Of a DNA stretch of 23,082 nt, positions 1 through 14,904 are shown one piece after another. The translations under genes were made by a program, and so were the position numbers. A model generated the notes under the pieces. It worked only from the letters and a program-made list of their open reading frames with translations. It was not told the origin of the DNA and did not search any database. Position 1 is the stretch's first letter. Each line of letters begins with the position of its first letter. This DNA is from a virus, in the IMG/VR virus record IMGVR_UViG_3300028831_000819, positions 1-23,082 of that record, one strand, 5' to 3'.

Positions 1-1137
1 CTAAGCCACCTTGCCCTTGTTCGTCCGGGGCGCCGTCCGGGATTCCTTGCCTTCCTCGGCGCGGACCATTCCAGCCCTCAATTCATCGTCCAGCACATGC
101 GCATACTTGGTGGTGGTCTCAATCTTTCGATGGTTCAAGGCGCGCTGCACCAGCTTGAGATTGCCGGTCGCGCGGAGGAGCTTCGTCGCAAAGTCGTGGC
201 GGTTGTCGTGCCATCGGTAGTCAAGGATTCCTGCCTTCGCTTTAGAGCGCCGCCAGTGCGTTTTCAGTCCTGATCTCGTGATTGGGTAGCGGGCTTTGCG
301 AATGCGCTTACCCTTGGCCGCCCGCTTGGCGACATAGGTGAACACGAACTCGGGATGGTGGCCTTTCCGCCCGATCAGTATGTGTCGCATAACCGGGGTG
401 ATCGGGAGGCGGACCGGCCGGCCGCCCTTGCCGGCGCGGATGATGGTAGCGCTCGCGAAGTCCACTTGGGACCAGCGCAGCAGGCTTTCGTTCATGCGTA
501 GGCCGGACGCAAGCGAGAAGCGCCGCAGTTCATCGTAATCTGGGTCCATGCTCGCGGCCAACGCTGCGTCCTCATCCCCGCGCAGCTCGCGAACACGCTC
601 CTCGGGTTCGGGTAGCATGTGGTTGCGCCAAATCGGTGCATTCGACAGCGGGACCCGCCATACGTCACGAGCGCGGGTGAATATGCGCTGCAGGACCTCG
701 GTGGTTGATCGATTGACCTGGGATGGGGTGATGAGCGGGTCTTGCACCTTCGCCTTGCGCTTACGATGCCGGACGACCCGATGCCCGCGGCGCCAGGCAA
801 CGAGCTTCGCAACATCGTCATCCCCGATGTCCGCCAGCAGCCGTTGCGGTCCGAAGTATTCCACGATCCTTGCCAGGTCCCGTTCCAGATCCTTTGCATT
901 CGCCTTGTGTTGGCCCGCCTCGGTCCAGTAGCGATCGGCCGCCAAGTCGATCGTCAGCGGCCCATCCTTTGCCGCCTGCCGCGCCTTGACGATACGCGCA
1001 GCTTTCTCCCGCTCTATCCTCTCGACTTGCTCTGCCTCTCGGCGATCGCCTTTTCGCGTCGTGCCAGAAAACCGATGACCTCCGATTTGGAAGTCGAAGT
1101 GGTAGAACGGGTGGCCTTTCGGCCGGTAGACTGACAT
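1..1137 (-). CDS. int: Tyrosine recombinase (phage integrase)
   Basis: 378 aa, complete, with the stop codon at the first bases of the window. It catalyses site-specific integration and excision of the prophage. The C-terminal catalytic domain shows the tyrosine-recombinase set: Arg224 in SGLRMNE, a likely Lys in the GKGGRP hairpin (about 237), His310 and Arg313 in WHDNRH, His336 in LNHRK, and the nucleophile Tyr345 in TTKYAHV. Residues 1-60 look like an arm-binding N-terminus and about 65-180 like the SAM-like core-binding domain. It is the last gene of the leftward operon. Its 5' end overlaps the upstream HTH gene by 124 bases in another frame. The start is ATG at 1137; the MSVYRPKG opening is typical of related phage integrases, so I keep it despite the overlap. 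The att site should lie left of base 1, outside the window. Confidence 0.95.
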   Translation of the reverse strand: MSVYRPKGHPFYHFDFQIGGHRFSGTTRKGDRREAEQVERIEREKAARIVKARQAAKDGPLTIDLAADRYWTEAGQHKANAKDLERDLARIVEYFGPQRLLADIGDDDVAKLVAWRRGHRVVRHRKRKAKVQDPLITPSQVNRSTTEVLQRIFTRARDVWRVPLSNAPIWRNHMLPEPEERVRELRGDEDAALAASMDPDYDELRRFSLASGLRMNESLLRWSQVDFASATIIRAGKGGRPVRLPITPVMRHILIGRKGHHPEFVFTYVAKRAAKGKRIRKARYPITRSGLKTHWRRSKAKAGILDYRWHDNRHDFATKLLRATGNLKLVQRALNHRKIETTTKYAHVLDDELRAGMVRAEEGKESRTAPRTNKGKVA

Positions 1138-1567: not shown

Positions 1568-1740
1568 GACCGCTCTCCCTTATGGATGGCCACTTCGGCG
1601 TTGAGCCGATCGGCTTCCTCTTGAGCCTCCCAGCCGTAGAGCCAAGGGCCGGCATCGGGACCGACCACATAGGACCAGCCCTTGTGCTCGATCACGCGAT
1701 AGCGGGCCTTGCCGATTACTGAGACGGCGGTGTCGGCCAT
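1564..1740 (-). CDS. Hypothetical 58-aa protein
   Basis: ATG at 1740 overlaps the TGA of the upstream methyltransferase (ATGA), and its own TGA overlaps the next gene's GTG. These linked overlaps are the main evidence that it is real. The product starts MADTAVSVIGKARYRV and has a Trp/Tyr/Gly-rich middle (GWSYVVGPDAGPWLYGWEAQ), then a charged helix. No family recognised. Confidence 0.65.
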   Translation of the reverse strand: MADTAVSVIGKARYRVIEHKGWSYVVGPDAGPWLYGWEAQEEADRLNAEVAIHKGERS

Positions 1741-2294
1741 CACTTCGTCCCCTGTTGGATGTTAAGAGCCAACGGCTGAAAATCGAGTTTGCAGGACACC
1801 TTACGGCCGACTGTCACGATGGTGTCGTTCTGGTCGCCATGGTTCACCATCAGGATTTCCTCGAGCTCCATCCCGTTCTTTGCGCCAAGCCCCAAGGAGT
1901 TCCAGCCGCACACGATGGCGACTCCGCCCATCTTGAGGACGCGCGCGGCCTCGCGCTTGCGGTCGCTGTAAAAACGGCGCGTCGTGTCGGCTGGGCCGAA
2001 GCCCTGATAGGCTTCAATCACTTGCCTGGGCGAGAACGGCGGATCGAACAGGACGCCATCCACGCTCGCCGCCGGCAGCGACTTGAGGAAGTCGAGTGCG
2101 TCCATGTTGTGCGTGCCGGCGAACTTGGGATTGAGATCGTTCGTCATCGCGCAGCGGGTCTTGAAAATGCTGTCGCGGCAGAACGGATCAATCCAGGAGC
2201 CGCCGTCATCGAGATAGCGTTCGACCAGCTCGCGTATCGGCTTGATCGAAAATGTCTCGGTTGATGGCATGGCCCAGGTCCGGTTGATCTTCAC
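1740..2294 (-). CDS. Phage DNA adenine-specific methyltransferase (DPPF type)
   Basis: 184 aa from a GTG start at 2294 overlapping the TGA of the Dam-like gene; the longer in-frame ORF upstream runs through that gene and is an artefact. It shows a class I methyltransferase layout: WIDPFCRDS (about 34-42) in the position of the SAM-binding region, TNDLNP (51-56) as the acidic strand end, and the catalytic DPPF at 84-87 followed by SPRQ, as in phage amino-methyltransferases. It probably methylates adenine N6 in an unknown site. No target recognition domain is obvious and it is short, so a partner protein is possible. There is no cognate restriction gene nearby, so an orphan methyltransferase for restriction evasion or regulation is more likely than a restriction-modification pair. 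Confidence 0.8.
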   Translation of the reverse strand: MKINRTWAMPSTETFSIKPIRELVERYLDDGGSWIDPFCRDSIFKTRCAMTNDLNPKFAGTHNMDALDFLKSLPAASVDGVLFDPPFSPRQVIEAYQGFGPADTTRRFYSDRKREAARVLKMGGVAIVCGWNSLGLGAKNGMELEEILMVNHGDQNDTIVTVGRKVSCKLDFQPLALNIQQGTK

Positions 2295-2794
2295 GTTCCA
2301 TTCCCACTGGAAATTGGCCTGACCAGCACGCCGAGCTGCGCGCCGGCTGCGCGCTGAAGCGCCCATTTCGCCCGCTCGCCTATCCCGAGTAGTGACGTGC
2401 CCTGTGCTGGCGACGTGCCCGGTCTCCCGTCCACTCCGATGAATTTGAGCTTCGGAGCGACAAATAGGATCAGTTCTGCTTCTGGAGCGAACTGCTGCCA
2501 CCACGGGGCCGACGTGCGATCAGGCACAAGCGCGATGCCGTTCCGGTGCTGGAAAAACTTCATGAGCCAAGGCACCAAGCCGTTCCGCGCCCCGAAGGGC
2601 GGGTTCATCCAAACGAAGCCGCGCCAATCCGGCGGGCTGTGCTTGGTGATGAAGCGACGGGCCGGGATCCATGGGGTGATTTCGTGGCCGGGACTGGCAA
2701 CGTCCGTGTCAAACGAACAACCCATCGCATCGAAGACGTGCGGTGGCGTGTACCACTCATCCGTCGCCCCAACGCATTGCTCGTGCAGCGCCAC
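2291..2794 (-). CDS. Phage Dam-family DNA N6-adenine methyltransferase
   Basis: 167 aa, GTG start at 2794, one base after the upstream stop. The opening DEWYTPPHVFDAMG followed by FDTDVASP and the catalytic NPPF at 64-67 match the phage-type Dam family (DNA_N6_adenine_MTase, Pfam Dam), whose usual length is about 150-190 aa. These enzymes transfer a methyl group from SAM to adenine in short sites. Its target cannot be read from the sequence. It is translationally coupled to a second methyltransferase through a GTGA overlap, so the two are made together early. They may act separately or as a pair. Confidence 0.88.
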   Translation of the reverse strand: MALHEQCVGATDEWYTPPHVFDAMGCSFDTDVASPGHEITPWIPARRFITKHSPPDWRGFVWMNPPFGARNGLVPWLMKFFQHRNGIALVPDRTSAPWWQQFAPEAELILFVAPKLKFIGVDGRPGTSPAQGTSLLGIGERAKWALQRAAGAQLGVLVRPISSGNGT

Positions 2795-5373: not shown

Positions 5374-5631
5374 CTAGTCGTGAGAGCGTCGTTCCGACGC
5401 CTTGTTGATCGGCGCCCATGTCGTGCCGCCTTGGCGACCCGTTCCGATCTTGTTGCGGTTTCCGCGCGGGGAGCTAGTTCGGATTGAGTGGGGCCAATCT
5501 GCTCGCCAGCAAACACCCGCCACCACATTGCGCGAGATGCCGAGCCGTTGCGCGATGAGCGTGAAGGACATATGGCCTCGCAATGCGAGTATTCGTTCGT
5601 TTCGTGCGTTCCGCGTCATGGCACTTGTCAT
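5374..5631 (-). CDS. Small HTH protein, GcrA-N-terminus-like
   Basis: 85 aa; ATG at 5631 overlaps the upstream TGA. Residues about 6-45 (ARNERILALRGHMSFTLIAQ, then RLGISRNVVAGVCWR) form a homeodomain-like helix-turn-helix whose SRN-VV-G-V-R recognition helix resembles that of GcrA (SRSAILGKVHR in the gene at 12831). The rest is basic and glycine-rich, without the GcrA C-terminal domain. It probably binds DNA; target unknown. Confidence 0.7.
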   Translation of the reverse strand: MTSAMTRNARNERILALRGHMSFTLIAQRLGISRNVVAGVCWRADWPHSIRTSSPRGNRNKIGTGRQGGTTWAPINKASERRSHD

Positions 5632-9330: not shown

Positions 9331-9798
9331 CTAGCGAGCGGGCCGTATCGGGATAAGGGCTGGCCCAGTGTTGAGCGTACTAGCTATTTCAGATTGGGCG
9401 ATGGCCGAAAGGGTTTGTGCGCGTGCAACTTGGTTCGCTGCCAGCCGCCGTTGTTCTTCGGACACGGCTGCAGAGTTGACCCTTGCAAATTCGGCCGCAG
9501 CTTGCGCTTCGCTGATCTGGCCGCGCTGCTCCCGCTCCGCAATTGCCAGCCGTTGAGCATTCATGGTGTCCATGAGGTCTGGGAACGGGATATGCTGTCT
9601 TACCAGCTCGTGCGCTTCATTCTTGCAGCGAGCGCGCGCCATCGAGTTCCGCGATCCGGGGAACTTGATGTTGCACTCAGACATAGCCTCCCCGAAGAGA
9701 TTTTCAGCGGCCTTGCGCTCATAGTATGCTGGACCTGGGCCGGACTGAGCACACCCCGCAAGCACCAAAGCGATTATTGCAGCCCGCGGGATGCTCAT
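9331..9798 (-). CDS. Prophage lipoprotein coupled to the repressor gene
   Basis: 155 aa. The N-terminus MSIPRAAIIALVLAGC is a lipoprotein signal peptide: Arg5, a hydrophobic core, and the lipobox L-A-G-C with Cys16 as lipidation site. The mature part has a Cys pair (SECNIKFPG, RARCKNE) and then a long Ala/Gln/Glu-rich amphipathic helix (about residues 80-140) that looks like a coiled coil. The ATG at 9798 overlaps the repressor TGA, with GGAAGG just upstream, so it should be made in the lysogen. A lipoprotein made in the lysogen suggests superinfection exclusion or another lysogenic conversion role. This is inference from position; a lysis-type spanin is less likely because of the location. 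Confidence 0.8.
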   Translation of the reverse strand: MSIPRAAIIALVLAGCAQSGPGPAYYERKAAENLFGEAMSECNIKFPGSRNSMARARCKNEAHELVRQHIPFPDLMDTMNAQRLAIAEREQRGQISEAQAAAEFARVNSAAVSEEQRRLAANQVARAQTLSAIAQSEIASTLNTGPALIPIRPAR

Positions 9799-10133
9799 GA
9801 GGCCTTCCGCCCCATAAGCCCTTCGATATATCCAATGGCCCTATTCCGATCTTCGGCCGGCAATTTTTCCACAAGCGCGTCCAAGCTGGGCTGCTGTGGC
9901 GGCCGGAGCATGTCTCCAAACGTTTTATTTAGTGCCTCGGCGTAGGCCGCGACGACGCCTGTAGGCAGCCTGCCGGTCCGAGCTGCCTTCTCCCATCGGG
10001 AGACCGTTCCCTTATCTACGGGCGGCCTAATGCGATTGCCGAGCATCTCCTGTGAGAGAGTCGGGCTATGAGCCTCCCGATGCTCAGCGAGGTAGAAACG
10101 AATAGCGCGTTTGGGTCCGATTCTAGGCGGCAT
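9795..10133 (-). CDS. CI-like repressor, short form without a peptidase domain
   Basis: 112 aa from ATG 10133 (MPPRIGPKRAIRFYLAEHRE). Residues about 9-75 form an XRE-type helix-turn-helix (TLSQEMLGNRI, then DKGTVSRWEKAARTGRLPTG and VVAAYAEAL). The last 35 residues (SLDALVEKLPAEDRNRAIGY, IEGLMG) are a helical tail, probably for dimerisation. There is no S24/LexA autocleavage domain. It diverges from the Cro-like gene across three operators, and one operator (10132-10148) overlaps its own start codon. I see no well-placed ribosome site, so it may be leaderless like lambda cI from PRM. A GTG two codons upstream is an alternative start. Confidence 0.8.
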   Translation of the reverse strand: MPPRIGPKRAIRFYLAEHREAHSPTLSQEMLGNRIRPPVDKGTVSRWEKAARTGRLPTGVVAAYAEALNKTFGDMLRPPQQPSLDALVEKLPAEDRNRAIGYIEGLMGRKAS

Positions 10134-10148
10134 TACCACTATGGTAAC
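10132..10148. promoter_or_regulatory. Repressor/Cro operator-like site, right 1 (on the repressor start)
   Basis: ATTACCACTATGGTAAC; TTACCA-CTA-TGGTAA is a perfect 6-bp dyad. It covers the repressor ATG (10133-10131, complement), so binding would block repressor expression and give autoregulation or Cro control. Confidence 0.72.
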
Positions 10149-10168
10149 CCGCCCGGCTGCCAAAGGCG

Positions 10169-10185
10169 TCAGCCATTGTGGAAAC
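10169..10185. promoter_or_regulatory. Repressor/Cro operator-like site, right 2
   Basis: TCAGCCATTGTGGAAAC. The right half-site is perfect and the left half degenerate. Its centre is 37 bp from right site 1 and 34 bp from right site 3. Confidence 0.6.
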
Positions 10186-10192
10186 CTCCCTC

Positions 10193-10221
10193 TTGCGCCG
10201 TGGTTGTCATTATGGTAACCA
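10193..10221 (+). promoter_or_regulatory. Candidate rightward early promoter (PR)
   Basis: TTGCGC at 10193-10198 and TAACCA at 10216-10221 are 17 bases apart and enclose operator right 3. The layout mirrors the candidate PL. Transcription would begin at or just before the Cro ATG at 10228, implying a leaderless or very short leader mRNA. The -10 box is weak. Confidence 0.4.
10203..10219. promoter_or_regulatory. Repressor/Cro operator-like site, right 3
   Basis: GTTGTCATTATGGTAAC, lying between the -35 and -10 of the candidate rightward promoter and ending 8 bases before the Cro-like ATG. Binding here would shut off Cro and the right operon. Confidence 0.68.
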
Positions 10222-10227
10222 CGGGAC

Positions 10228-10434
10228 ATGGAAGGCACCCACCCGTTACGTCAGTGGCGTATCGATCGCGGCCTCACGCAAGAGGAAGCCGCGCGGGAAT
10301 TGGATCTGAAGAAGCCCGAGCTTTCCAGGTTTGAGAACCGCCGCCGTCTCCCGACTCTCACCCGTGCCGCCAAGCTCAGTGAGAAAACGGGCATTCCGCT
10401 TGATGCATTCGTGTCGGTCGAGGCCGCCGAATGA
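10228..10434 (+). CDS. Cro-like XRE-family regulator
   Basis: 68 aa. Residues about 7-58 are a textbook XRE helix-turn-helix (LRQWRIDRGLTQEEAARELD, then KKPELSRFENRRRLP and AAKLSEKTGIPLDAF). The start is ATG at 10228; there is no other in-frame start before the HTH and only a GGGA three bases upstream, so the mRNA may be leaderless. It diverges from the CI-like repressor with three shared operators between them, the Cro position. Its opposite orientation and small size make Cro the best call, though which of the two proteins maintains lysogeny is not proven by sequence. Confidence 0.82.
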   Translation: MEGTHPLRQWRIDRGLTQEEAARELDLKKPELSRFENRRRLPTLTRAAKLSEKTGIPLDAFVSVEAAE

Positions 10435-10478
10435 CACGGGATTCAGCCGCATGACGCTACCTCCATTCCGTCAAGCGA

Positions 10479-11556: not shown

Positions 11557-11573
11557 CGATTATCCCTCCATGA

Positions 11574-11596
11574 CTCGTATCGTGGCACGAGTTTTT
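11574..11596 (+). terminator. Weak candidate rightward intrinsic terminator
   Basis: CTCGT/ACGAG 5-bp stem around an 8-base loop, followed by TTTTT. It could end short transcripts from the Cro promoter before the long rightward operon. The stem is short. Confidence 0.3.
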
Positions 11597-11669
11597 CCAT
11601 GAGGGCACCGCAAACCTTGGCTACTCGCCTCCTCATCGGCAGCTACTACAGCGACGTTCTGACTAGGCG

Positions 11670-11714
11670 TCACGAGAGCGAAGTGAGCGGGGCACAATCT
11701 CCGCTCTCTCGTGA
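11670..11714. repeat. Imperfect long inverted repeat in noncoding DNA
   Basis: TCACGAGAG pairs perfectly with CTCTCGTGA, and further CG and AGCGG/CCGCT pairings extend the hairpin. There is no T-run on either side, so it is not a simple terminator. It lies next to the leftward terminator hairpin. Confidence 0.5.
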
Positions 11715-11717
11715 TCC

Positions 11718-11773
11718 AATAAAAACCAGCCGAGCGGGTACACGGGAAGGGGCATCCCATCCCGCCCGGCTGG
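11718..11773 (-). terminator. Strong leftward intrinsic terminator
   Basis: The leftward transcript would form a 13-bp stem, CCAGCCGGGCGGG with CCCGCTCGGCTGG (one G-U type mismatch), followed by TTTTTATT. It blocks leftward transcription arriving from the right operon side, insulating the leftward genes below 11556. Confidence 0.65.
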
Positions 11774-11801
11774 ACGCGCGTTCTGTGAGTAGGGGCGAGT
11801 C

Positions 11802-12062
11802 ATGTATCGCAACGTACCGTTCGGGGTTGCAAGTTCCAGAGAAATCAACACGCAAGAAGCTACAGAGCCCCGCAGAATTGCGGAAAGGCCCGAATTTCCG
11901 CGAGTTTCAAAACTCCTCTGGCCCGACAAGACAGCCGCCACTCTCGCTAGTCTCGTCAACGCAAATCCCAGAACGGCAGAGCGATGGGTCTCAGGCGAGA
12001 TCGAGCCGCCCTACGATGTTGTTGAACTCACCATGCACAAAATCTTCGGCGGGTATCGCTGA
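11802..12062 (+). CDS. Small HTH-like phage regulator
   Basis: 86 aa; ATG at 11802 with AGGGG upstream. The C-terminal half (LLWPDKTAATLASLVNANPR, then TAERWVSGEIEPPYD and VVELTMHKIF) resembles the small helix-turn-helix proteins of rhizobial phages, in which a 'WPxKTAxxLA' helix is followed by an 'RTAExWLSGExxP' recognition helix. The N-terminal 35 residues are basic and poorly structured. It is the first gene of the continuous rightward block, so a regulatory role is plausible. A GAGTC site directly precedes the ATG. Confidence 0.7.
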   Translation: MYRNVPFGVASSREINTQEATEPRRIAERPEFPRVSKLLWPDKTAATLASLVNANPRTAERWVSGEIEPPYDVVELTMHKIFGGYR

Positions 12063-12080
12063 CCTTTGCGGGAGTGAGTG

Positions 12081-12731
12081 ATGGTGGACCCGTTCGCCTC
12101 ACTTCCGCGCGGCCATTTCGGGGCGATCCTTGCTGACCCGCCGTGGCCTTTCGCTACATGGTCGCACAAGGGACAGGGACGTAGCGGAGAGGCCCATTAT
12201 AGCACGATGTCCCATGCTGATATGGAAAATCTGCCAGTTGCTGACTTGGCGGCCGATGATTGCGCGCTATTCATGTGGATTGTGCAAACGCAAATCCCGG
12301 AAGCCGTCAGGCTGATCGAAGCATGGGGCTTTAAACTAAAATCATGCGCCTTCAACTGGGTAAAGGGCGGCGCGCTTCCGCTATTCCCCGACGACGTTGT
12401 AACCCAGATGGGTATGGGGAAATGGACCCGCGCCGAGTCGGAGGTTTGCTGGCTTGCTACACGCGGAAGTCCGAAGCGGCTTAACGCCGACGTTCGACAG
12501 GTGATTGACGAGCGACGCCGTGAGCATAGCCGCAAACCAGACTGTGTACACGAACGCATCGAGCGGCTGGTAGCCGGGCCCTACCTTGAGCTATTCGCGC
12601 GCCAGCAGCGTCCTAATTGGACTGTATGGGGCAATCAAACCGACAAGTTCAGCGCGCCCGAAAAGCGACAGACATTCTCGGACATCTGGAAAGCGCCTTA
12701 CTGGAACGAAGAAGGTACTGCGCCAGCGTAA
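12081..12731 (+). CDS. MT-A70 family N6-adenine DNA methyltransferase
   Basis: 216 aa. The start is ATG at 12081, placed 6 bases after GGAG; the GTG at 12078 is too close. Catalytic DPPW lies at 19-22 (AILADPPWPF), followed by family features: HYSTMSHADM (about 40-49), LFMWIVQTQIPEA, WGFKLKSCAFNWVKGG, GMGKWTRAESEVCWLATRGS, and the C-terminal PNWTVWGNQ. Family members methylate adenine N6 with SAM; in bacteria and phages the substrate is usually DNA, though the eukaryotic relatives act on RNA. It is next to the GcrA homologue. No restriction partner is present. Confidence 0.92.
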   Translation: MVDPFASLPRGHFGAILADPPWPFATWSHKGQGRSGEAHYSTMSHADMENLPVADLAADDCALFMWIVQTQIPEAVRLIEAWGFKLKSCAFNWVKGGALPLFPDDVVTQMGMGKWTRAESEVCWLATRGSPKRLNADVRQVIDERRREHSRKPDCVHERIERLVAGPYLELFARQQRPNWTVWGNQTDKFSAPEKRQTFSDIWKAPYWNEEGTAPA

Positions 12732-12830
12732 ATCGACGGGGCTTGGGGGCCTCAAGTAATCGTTGCGTCAGTGCGGAAAGTGGTGGCTCTACGCCGCTGC
12801 GTTAATGCGTATCGGGAGAGGAACGGACAA

Positions 12831-13367
12831 ATGTCGAACATGCATCCCAATCAGGCGCATTTGCCGCCATCACCTTGGAACGAGGAAAAAGAAACCCATC
12901 TGAAACAGGCATGGGCCAACGGCCTATCAGCCTCCCAAATTTCTATCATGATATTTCAAGGGGAGTTTTCCCGCTCAGCCATTCTCGGCAAGGTGCATAG
13001 GCTTGATCTAGCTCCTCGAAATACCCCGATTATGACCCAAGATGAACGCGAGCAGCGTAGACGGGATCGCGATCGTACCCGAGACATCAAGCTAACTCGT
13101 GCGAGGCGGCGCACCAATAGGCCGGTTTATGCTCGGGCAGAGGTCCCAGAGCCGCCAGCCCCCAAAATGAAACCCTGCTCATTGCCGGAACTGACTAGAG
13201 AGACTTGCCGCTGGCCAATCGGGCATCCAGGTAATTCAGATTTCTTCTTCTGCGGGGCTGAGCCAGAGGCTCACAAGCCGTACTGTACCTACCACGACAG
13301 ACTATCGCACGCCAGATTACCAGGTGTCTCAGGCAGGCCGTTCATTCAAAGAGGATGGCCGGCGTGA
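12831..13367 (+). CDS. gcrA: GcrA cell-cycle regulator homologue
   Basis: 178 aa from ATG 12831 with GAGAGG upstream. Residues about 14-62 (PWNEEKETHLKQAWANGLSA then ILGKVHRLDL) match the GcrA DNA-binding HTH. The C-terminal domain has the GcrA hallmarks ETCRWPIGHPG (about 124-134), FFFCG and PYCTYHDRL. In Caulobacter, GcrA binds sigma70-RNA polymerase and activates promoters carrying GANTC methylated by CcrM. Both domains are present, so this copy could work on host or phage promoters. The linker is long, Arg-rich and proline-rich. Phage-borne GcrA proteins are known in alphaproteobacterial phages. Confidence 0.92.
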   Translation: MSNMHPNQAHLPPSPWNEEKETHLKQAWANGLSASQISIMIFQGEFSRSAILGKVHRLDLAPRNTPIMTQDEREQRRRDRDRTRDIKLTRARRRTNRPVYARAEVPEPPAPKMKPCSLPELTRETCRWPIGHPGNSDFFFCGAEPEAHKPYCTYHDRLSHARLPGVSGRPFIQRGWPA

Positions 13368-14086
13368 CCGCAATGCGGCCGTGGATGAAATGGTATCCCG
13401 CCGACTGGCGGGCTGACCCACGGCTGCGCATGTGCTCGCTGGCGGCGCGCGGCTTATGGGCCGATCTCATCAGCTACATGCACGAAGGAGAGCCTTACGG
13501 ACATCTCACAATTGACGGAATAGAGCCAAACGAACCAGGCATTGCTGCTCTGGTGGCCCGGCCGCTAAAGGAGGTGAAAAGGGCTTTGGCCGAGCTCGAT
13601 CGGTTTCAGGTGTTTAGCCGGACGGAAGCAGGTGTAATTTTCTCACGACGGATGGTTAGGGATAAGGCCAAAGCGGAATCCGACACAGTAAATGGTAAAG
13701 GGGGTGGTAATCCCAAATTGACCGTGGGGGATAAGGGGGGGGTTAACCCCCCGGATAAGGCCCATATGCCAGAGGCTAGAAGCCAGAAAGAAAGTGAAGA
13801 TGCGGCTGATGCCGCGCCATCGACAGGGTACGCCTTTGAACAGGGGGTCATTCGGTTGTCCCCTAAAGACTTTGCCAAGTGGCAAAAGGCCTATCCAAAT
13901 CTCGACCTTGCCGCGGAACTGATCCCAATGGCCCAATGGGCCGGCGAGCAGCGAGATTGGTTTTTTGCTGTGTCCGGCGCGCTCGCCAAGAAAAACCGTG
14001 AGGAAAAGCGGCGCCGGGAAATGCGGAACGGCGCGCCCGTGCTGCTTACACCATCAGGAAACCCTTGGCCTGAAGGCATTACATGA
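13364..14086 (+). CDS. Phage replication protein, DUF1376-like/O-like
   Basis: 240 aa from GTG 13364, which overlaps the GcrA stop (GTGA) with AAGAGG about 9 bases upstream; an ATG at 13355 is possible but has no spaced ribosome site. The N-terminus MRPWMKWYPADWRADPRLRM with AARGLWADLISYMHE and an LDRFQVFSRTEAGVIFSRRM end is the winged-helix type of DUF1376/replication-initiator proteins. A Gly/Lys-rich linker (about 105-145) follows, then PEARSQKESEDAA, and a C-terminal helical domain. It stands immediately before a DnaB/RecA-like ATPase through an ATGA overlap, matching the lambda O-P arrangement. The linker DNA is unusually G-rich and palindromic and may be the origin. Confidence 0.8.
   Translation: MTAMRPWMKWYPADWRADPRLRMCSLAARGLWADLISYMHEGEPYGHLTIDGIEPNEPGIAALVARPLKEVKRALAELDRFQVFSRTEAGVIFSRRMVRDKAKAESDTVNGKGGGNPKLTVGDKGGVNPPDKAHMPEARSQKESEDAADAAPSTGYAFEQGVIRLSPKDFAKWQKAYPNLDLAAELIPMAQWAGEQRDWFFAVSGALAKKNREEKRRREMRNGAPVLLTPSGNPWPEGIT
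13680..13770 (+). other. G-rich palindromic tract, candidate replication origin
   Basis: Within the replication gene linker there is GGGGGGTTAACCCCCC (13737-13752, perfect 16-bp palindrome), two copies of GGATAAGG (13728-13735 and 13752-13759), and runs of G near 13699 and 13726. Phage origins often lie inside the initiator gene, as in lambda O. This is a suggestion only. Confidence 0.3.
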
Positions 14087-14904
14087 CCGTCGTGCATCTC
14101 CCGAGACACAAGCAGCCCGGCTATTATTCGCTCGCAGATTTGCCGCAGCAGCTGAGTGTGGCCGAAATCGCGATCAGCACCGGATGGTGGGAGTTAGACC
14201 AGATTTGGAAGCCATATCCCGGCCAATTCAATGTAGTTTCAGGCATCGCTGGGCATGGGAAATCGACGTTTCTGCTCAATGTGATCTGCAATGTGGCCAA
14301 GAAGCATGGCACAAAATCGTTCCTCTACGTTCCGGAAAATGAGTCCCATGTCCGCGAAAAGTTGCGCTTGATCTGGGGTAATTCCGGCGGGTTTGAGGAC
14401 TTCTGCCAGTCCGGATGTTTTATTCAGTCGGCCGTTCCGGACCATTACGATGACGCCCCGAAGACGCTTGGATGGGTGCTCAATCAAGCTGTAACGGCTC
14501 TGGATGAGGACGAGGTTGATATTGTGCTGATTGATCCATGGAATGAGCTGGAACGCGCCAAGCCCCCAGATTTGTTGATGACCGACTATATCGGGCAATG
14601 CCTGATGTATCTCAAGCAGTTCTGCCGTGCCACGCAAGCGACCGCGATCTTGGTTGCGCACCCAACTAAGGCCGGCACGGCAGAAGGTAAAACGCCAGGG
14701 TTGGCCGACATTGAAGGATCGATGAATTGGTACAACAAATGTGACAACGGCCTCATCGTGGTCCGTGACCCCGACAAAAGCACCTGTCGGGTTATCAGCG
14801 CCAAGGCTCGAGAGTCAGGATCAGGAAAGCGTGGCGTCTGTCACTTTTTCGTTGAGCAGGAAACCGGCATTTTCACGCCGCAGGTCGGGGCCGTTACACC
14901 ATGA
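14083..14904 (+). CDS. DnaB/RecA-like replicative ATPase (helicase)
   Basis: 273 aa; ATG at 14083 overlaps the previous TGA. Walker A is GIAGHGKST (about 54-62, Lys60), within a STGWWELDQIWKPYPGQFNV lead-in typical of DnaB C-terminal/Twinkle-type domains. Walker B is VDIVLIDPWNEL with Asp151, followed by the ILVAHPTK motif, which carries the sensor/motif 3 residues, and a SMNWYNKCDNGLIV, ISAKARESGSG arginine-finger-like end. The DnaB N-terminal domain is absent; the preceding gene may supply the loader/initiator role. It probably unwinds phage DNA at the origin. Confidence 0.88.
   Translation: MTVVHLPRHKQPGYYSLADLPQQLSVAEIAISTGWWELDQIWKPYPGQFNVVSGIAGHGKSTFLLNVICNVAKKHGTKSFLYVPENESHVREKLRLIWGNSGGFEDFCQSGCFIQSAVPDHYDDAPKTLGWVLNQAVTALDEDEVDIVLIDPWNELERAKPPDLLMTDYIGQCLMYLKQFCRATQATAILVAHPTKAGTAEGKTPGLADIEGSMNWYNKCDNGLIVVRDPDKSTCRVISAKARESGSGKRGVCHFFVEQETGIFTPQVGAVTP

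Follow-up and report, generated by a model that had tools for sequence, protein, structure and literature searches.

GcrA of Caulobacter binds methylated GANTC better than the unmethylated site and activates promoters (PMC3667746), and phage versions of this regulator have been published for phiCbK, Atu_ph08, and phiLM21-like prophages. The phiCbK protein has been proposed to act in favor of an S-phase-like transcription in the host or of the early promoters of the phage (PMC3556154), an upregulation of the host replication machinery has been proposed for Atu_ph08 (PMC6630229), and the expression of a Brevundimonas prophage operon is GcrA dependent (PMC7987155). Phage enzymes that methylate GANTC are also known, namely, phiLM21_p027, Phi2LM21_p21, Phi3LM21_p21, and three Paracoccus prophage enzymes (PMC5537653, PMC3925955), as well as PhiOC_p213, which resembles CcrM (PMC7139368). 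Unrelated enzymes of alphaproteobacterial phages have converged on this specificity (PMC5537653, PMC7139368). Within the MT-A70 family, PhiBZS1_p32, which is 75% identical to HK639_35, is GATC specific and leaves the DNA sensitive to HinfI (PMC7556043), and the enzyme M.EcoPA8orf6770P of a STEC prophage, with its partner PNB-2, prefers 16S rRNA (PMC10810198). Phage GcrA, phage GANTC methyltransferases, and the presence of both in one phage (Atu_ph08 and the Caulobacter phage DMCA) are already on record.

The stretch of DNA that we analyzed (here, the window) is an entire virus record of 23,082 bases. It is a fragment of a phage that we classify as temperate, as it codes for a tyrosine integrase (Table 1). 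The leftward operon contains a Rad52-like recombinase and two methyltransferases, and the rightward operon codes, in this order, for a small regulator, an MT-A70 methyltransferase, GcrA, replication proteins, the terminase, and a P22-type portal. The product of the small gene that opens the right operon had no family match, and the slot that follows GcrA is occupied by DUF1376 proteins in two of the viral loci compared (L088 and L022). The sequence ATGGTAACC occurs twice close to the divergently oriented repressor-like and Cro-like genes (10137-10227), and both copies look like operator sites. A search against plasmids gave no match for the window. The host is probably a member of the Hyphomicrobiales or another alphaproteobacterium, judging from distant prophage relatives. 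When MT-A70 and the switch genes in common are considered, the nearest cellular prophage-like match is a locus of a Hyphomicrobium MAG (L110), in which the MT-A70 is 59% identical to that of the window, GcrA lies 499 bp from it, and homologs of the repressor-like, Cro-like, and HNH genes of the window are also found. The same assembly contains a separate chromosomal-type GcrA and, on another contig, a portal 36% identical to ours.

Table 1. Coordinates of the features of the window discussed in the text
Feature	Position	Strand	Evidence
Tyrosine integrase	1..1137	-	PF00589, E = 6.8e-19
Orphan DPPF methyltransferase, 4-nt overlap with the Dam-like gene	1740..2294	-	phrog_11619, E = 1.9e-40
Dam-like adenine methyltransferase, NPPF motif, left operon	2291..2794	-	PF05869, E = 2.5e-8
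Small helix-turn-helix protein with weak similarity to the DNA-binding domain of GcrA	5374..5631	-	phrog_16311, E = 0.0013
Helix-turn-helix repressor-like gene	9795..10136	-	weak PF13560/PF01381
Cro-like HTH_3 gene, divergent from the repressor-like gene	10228..10434	+	PF01381, E = 3.7e-14
Intergenic stretch before the right operon, GANTC sites at 11572 and 11797	11557..11801	+	
Small gene opening the right operon	11802..12062	+	upstream homologs in related phages, 34-43% identity
MT-A70-type adenine methyltransferase, start GTG 12078 or GTG 12081	12078..12731	+	PF05063, E = 2.1e-27; phrog_359, E = 2e-79
Phage GcrA, DNA-binding and sigma70-interacting domains	12831..13367 (open frame from 12771)	+	PF07750, E = 8.5e-33
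phrog_17247 protein, function unassigned, translationally coupled to GcrA	13355..14086	+	
DnaB/primase-helicase-like ATPase, replication module	14083..14904	+	PF13481, E = 5.8e-9; phrog_239, E = 8e-27

Several described phages share parts of this organization. Phage DMCA (PQ480021) also has an integrase, a GcrA in the replication-side operon, and a Dam-like methyltransferase in the opposite operon (60.7% identical to that of the window). However, its GcrA is only 28% identical to ours and lies 871 nt from a PF01555 adenine methyltransferase, where the window has MT-A70 as the neighbor, and an extra cytosine methyltransferase is present. The Agrobacterium phage Atu_ph08 (PMC6630229) likewise combines GcrA with several methyltransferases, but it is T7-like, its GcrA is 90% identical to an Agrobacterium protein, and its Dam-like protein is only 35% identical to that of the window. 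A PF07750 phage GcrA is also found in phiCbK (gp222; PMC3556154), a giant phage of over 200 kb, in which the protein is 28% identical in tblastn. The temperate phage phiLM21 resembles the window in that, within its rightward module, the gene for the DnaB helicase is preceded by that for an adenine methyltransferase (PMC5537653), although p027 has no detectable similarity to our MT-A70 or Dam-like enzyme. Last, the MT-A70 enzymes of BZS1 and HK639 (PMC7556043) belong to the same family as that of the window, but these phages infect gammaproteobacteria and lack GcrA, and the GATC specificity was shown for BZS1 only.

The GcrA gene likely starts at the ATG at 12831, which has the better ribosome-binding site (of the GGGAGAGGAACGG type), 100 bp downstream of the MT-A70 gene, and its last 13 nt are shared with the following gene of the replication operon. 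The PF07750 match covers positions 3 to 145 of 155, and the structure of Caulobacter GcrA (7ye1) was matched over both domains (E = 8.8e-19), so that the homolog proposed in the sequence-only reading is full length. The family-invariant residues are kept (W, G-K, R, and, in the C-terminal domain, the C/C/C/H set). In contrast, the protein scores 85.3 bits against NF050816, the chromosomal GcrA equivalog, which has a cutoff of 280, and the Asn of the TRNAVIGK segment, found in all 18 chromosomal GcrAs compared, is replaced by Ser, as also seen in other phage GcrAs. In a tree of 115 sequences, the 18 chromosomal proteins group with 8 phage sequences (support, 0.90) apart from the other 89, which are mostly viral and include the protein of the window. 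This separation from the chromosomal GcrAs argues, at the level of the tree, that it belongs to an old phage lineage with no recent capture from a host.

The small protein encoded at 5374-5631 had been described as a GcrA-like HTH protein. It does resemble the first domain of GcrA weakly, as GcrA profiles gave 11 to 17 bits in a match confined to the helix-turn-helix, but the C-terminal sigma-interacting domain is absent. It had no Pfam match, its AlphaFold model was poor (pLDDT, 57), and no relatives were found in the viral contigs searched, so we rejected it as a second GcrA.

All three methyltransferase genes proposed from the sequence were confirmed by family matches. MT-A70 scores 96.6 bits (PF05063 cutoff, 23.9), has an intact catalytic DPPW, and shares 22 invariant columns with 18 phage relatives; the Dam-like enzyme scores 34.2 bits (PF05869 cutoff, 28.1), which places it in the phage Dam family. 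The DPPF enzyme, identified by its PHROG family, had no Pfam match and is 44 to 55% identical to proteins of Staphylococcus, Streptococcus, and Erwinia phages, a distribution over Gram-positive and enterobacterial phages from which we regard this sequence family as broadly mobile. The suggestion that these enzymes write the mark read by GcrA found no support. None of the three matched the CcrM-type family PF01555 at an E value of 0.01, phiLM21_p027 gave no meaningful BLASTP alignment with MT-A70 or the Dam-like enzyme, and phmmer/profile searches with it matched no open reading frame of the window. Judged by homology, then, none of them is a GANTC writer. The MT-A70 of the window and HK639_35 share 37% identity in an alignment of 198 columns, DPPW included. 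As this is too distant for a safe transfer of specificity, and convergence toward GANTC is documented, a GANTC target for MT-A70 is possible but unlikely.

We then compared the neighborhoods of both genes in viral contigs searched with GcrA and MT-A70 profiles, with gene calls taken from a crude longest-ORF set. MT-A70 occurs in 12 of 81 GcrA-anchored loci (at less than 1 kb in 9), and GcrA occurs in 12 of 91 MT-A70-anchored loci (at less than 1 kb in 10), in every case on the same strand (12/12 for both sets). Among the contigs with both genes, 18 of 23 carried them on one strand and no more than 1 kb apart versus 3.3 expected, a value reached in 0 of 100,000 simulations in which MT-A70 was placed uniformly, by position alone and ignoring operon structure. 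After dereplication to 67 loci, MT-A70 was found on the same strand at less than 1 kb from GcrA in 9 (1.6 expected), which amount to about 7 independent cases, as three loci (L029, L030, and L060) are related, and the profile used also takes in a few of the counted loci. Dam-like enzymes were found at less than 1 kb in 4 (0.7 expected; P = 0.001). The MT-A70 and Dam-like queries for this count were derived from the window, itself not one of the loci counted. PF01555 enzymes were not enriched near GcrA in the 67 loci (2 versus 2.0 expected); some of their queries had been picked from loci near GcrA. MT-A70 was the family most often close to GcrA, at a distance of up to 2 kb in 8 of 9 loci, compared to 5 of 13 for a helicase-like family.

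MT-A70 and GcrA are found in either gene order, so they do not represent a single inherited block. The pair is also optional, since close MT-A70 relatives (89% identical in L088 and 80% in L090) have no GcrA in the flanks examined. Two loci with an MT-A70 80% identical to ours and no GcrA (L090 and L091) have many GANTC sites (observed/expected ratio of 1.02 in L090 and 5.7 sites per kb in L091), which suggests a host without a CcrM-type constraint. In two other contigs, GcrA overlaps a homolog of phiLM21_p027, located at 9295-9975 in L032 (E = 3e-59; GcrA, 9911-10438) and at 10303-11169 in L042 (E = 2e-60; GcrA, 9791-10456); by their sequences, these two would be the best candidates for a true GANTC writer-reader cassette. 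An MT-A70-like gene that overlaps GcrA in L044 (9417-9998) reads DPPT in place of DPPW and is possibly inactive, and a Dam-like enzyme 61% identical to that of the window lies ca. 0.6 kb downstream. A large open frame adjoining a normal phage GcrA in L070 (10036-11973) has a further sigma-interacting domain of the GcrA type at its end (PF07750, E = 4.8e-9); we discarded it as a methyltransferase, as that identity was not confirmed. As a whole, these comparative data suggest that methyltransferase/GcrA pairs are selected, although shared membership in the early/replication module may explain part of the MT-A70/GcrA association.

GANTC is scarce in the window, with 38 sites versus 74 expected under a maximal-order Markov model (97 with order 2 and 111 with order 1). 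Among 16 interrupted five-base palindromes, it has the lowest observed/expected ratio (0.51); the ratio for GATC is close to unity (0.98). A scan detected no clustering of GANTC (P = 0.5 to 0.9), and the intergenic count (7 versus 3.6 expected; P = 0.06) is inflated by the unannotated right end. In 74 GcrA-phage loci, the depletion of GANTC was similar for coding (0.57) and intergenic (0.62) DNA, with an intergenic/coding ratio of 1.09 that is similar to those of other motifs there and to the 1.11 of MT-A70 phages without GcrA. The median observed/expected ratio was 0.56 in GcrA phages versus 0.64 in MT-A70 phages without GcrA (Mann-Whitney P = 0.01), a difference that may reflect only host biology, because the hosts of the two sets differ. 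Caulobacter GcrA recognizes the motif YGAKTCG. Only two matches to it were found in the window (12434 and 16615), both within coding sequence, and we did not retain them as regulatory sites. We also rejected the GANTC sites as promoter evidence, given their lack of clustering, the marginal intergenic excess here, and the lack of any excess across the 74 loci.

These counts bear on the methylation-timed switch put forward in the sequence-only reading. The GACTC at 11572 and the GAGTC at 11797, the latter abutting the ATG at 11802, do exist but are unremarkable, as GANTC is neither clustered nor enriched in promoters; the count against expectation gave instead an approximately 2-fold depletion across the window. 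The gap of 91 bp between the divergent repressor-like and Cro-like genes contains no GANTC, and a scan for sigma70-like promoters in the switch region and in the intergenic stretch before the right operon gave no excess over shuffled sequences, so a switch of this kind is unsupported. What stands is the presence of the methyltransferase and GcrA genes in one phage and their pairing above chance, but not a writer-reader function.

The explanation that we favor, with a probability of about 0.5, is that GcrA would read the CcrM marks of the host in favor of early or replication transcription and that the methyltransferases would mainly protect the phage DNA. As both domains and the invariant residues are kept, the phage protein probably acts like that of the host, as a sigma70 cofactor recruiting RNA polymerase to promoters with CcrM-methylated GANTC. 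Made together with the replication genes, it would push the cell toward S-phase-like transcription or aid the early genes of the phage during infection or induction. The MT-A70 and Dam-like enzymes plausibly target GATC. Protection does not account for everything, however, as the adjacency of MT-A70 and GcrA exceeds what it predicts, and restriction avoidance would deplete the protected site, while GATC is not depleted. That adjacency could point to a closed circuit in which MT-A70 or the Dam-like enzyme had become GANTC specific by convergence, as documented for unrelated enzymes, and the adjacent GcrA read the marks made by the phage to time the promoters of the phage or the host. The overlap of GcrA with an enzyme whose homolog has a GANTC specificity shown experimentally (PMC5537653), in the slot that MT-A70 fills here, goes in the same direction. 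Nevertheless, the tested MT-A70 enzymes modify GATC or 16S rRNA, close homologs dispense with GcrA (one of them in a locus without GANTC depletion), and the intergenic DNA of GcrA phages is not enriched in GANTC, so we consider such a circuit improbable. A portable version of it, in which MT-A70 would replace the proven type of GANTC writer beside GcrA to give a self-contained methylation-dependent transcription switch, is rather unlikely as well.

GcrA itself might work differently, either as an activator independent of methylation or as a decoy that competes with the host protein for sigma70 and stalls the host cell cycle, an effect suggested for the GcrA of phiCbK (PMC7987155). Its deep divergence from chromosomal GcrA and the replaced Asn would fit, but most residues of the DNA-binding domain are kept and the Ser is common to other phage GcrAs, which leaves this a doubtful reading. 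It is quite unlikely that MT-A70 is an RNA (e.g., rRNA) methyltransferase unrelated to GcrA reading. The preference of M.EcoPA8orf6770P and the nearest solved structures, which are the eukaryotic MT-A70 and METTL3 enzymes, are consistent with it; PHROGs and PADLOC, by family annotation only, place the protein among the DNA methyltransferases, a related Serratia phage enzyme methylates DNA, and there is no ParB-like gene among the window genes scanned against Pfam. The remaining explanation is that both genes are frequent cargo of a mosaic early module and that their adjacency has no functional meaning, given that phage methyltransferases are often found near replication modules (PMC5537653), that PF01555-type enzymes are not enriched near GcrA, and that GcrA is variably present among close MT-A70 relatives. 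Against this, MT-A70 is the family found closest to GcrA, ahead of a helicase-like family, and we give mere co-residence little credence.

In the set of open-access papers searched, none names GcrA and MT-A70 together, and within that scope their statistical pairing therefore appears to be undescribed; the overlap of GcrA with a homolog of a proven GANTC methyltransferase in two viral contigs is apparently unreported. The adjacency of GcrA and methyltransferases, seen across many phages that are not related to one another, hints at a joint function. If the pairing is not functional, the value of these data is that of a catalog, in which phage GcrA and adenine methyltransferases, MT-A70 above all, travel together beyond chance. 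A functional pairing would mean that phages bring along the two halves of an epigenetic regulatory circuit, and it would make testable the older idea of a host cell cycle steered by phage GcrA.
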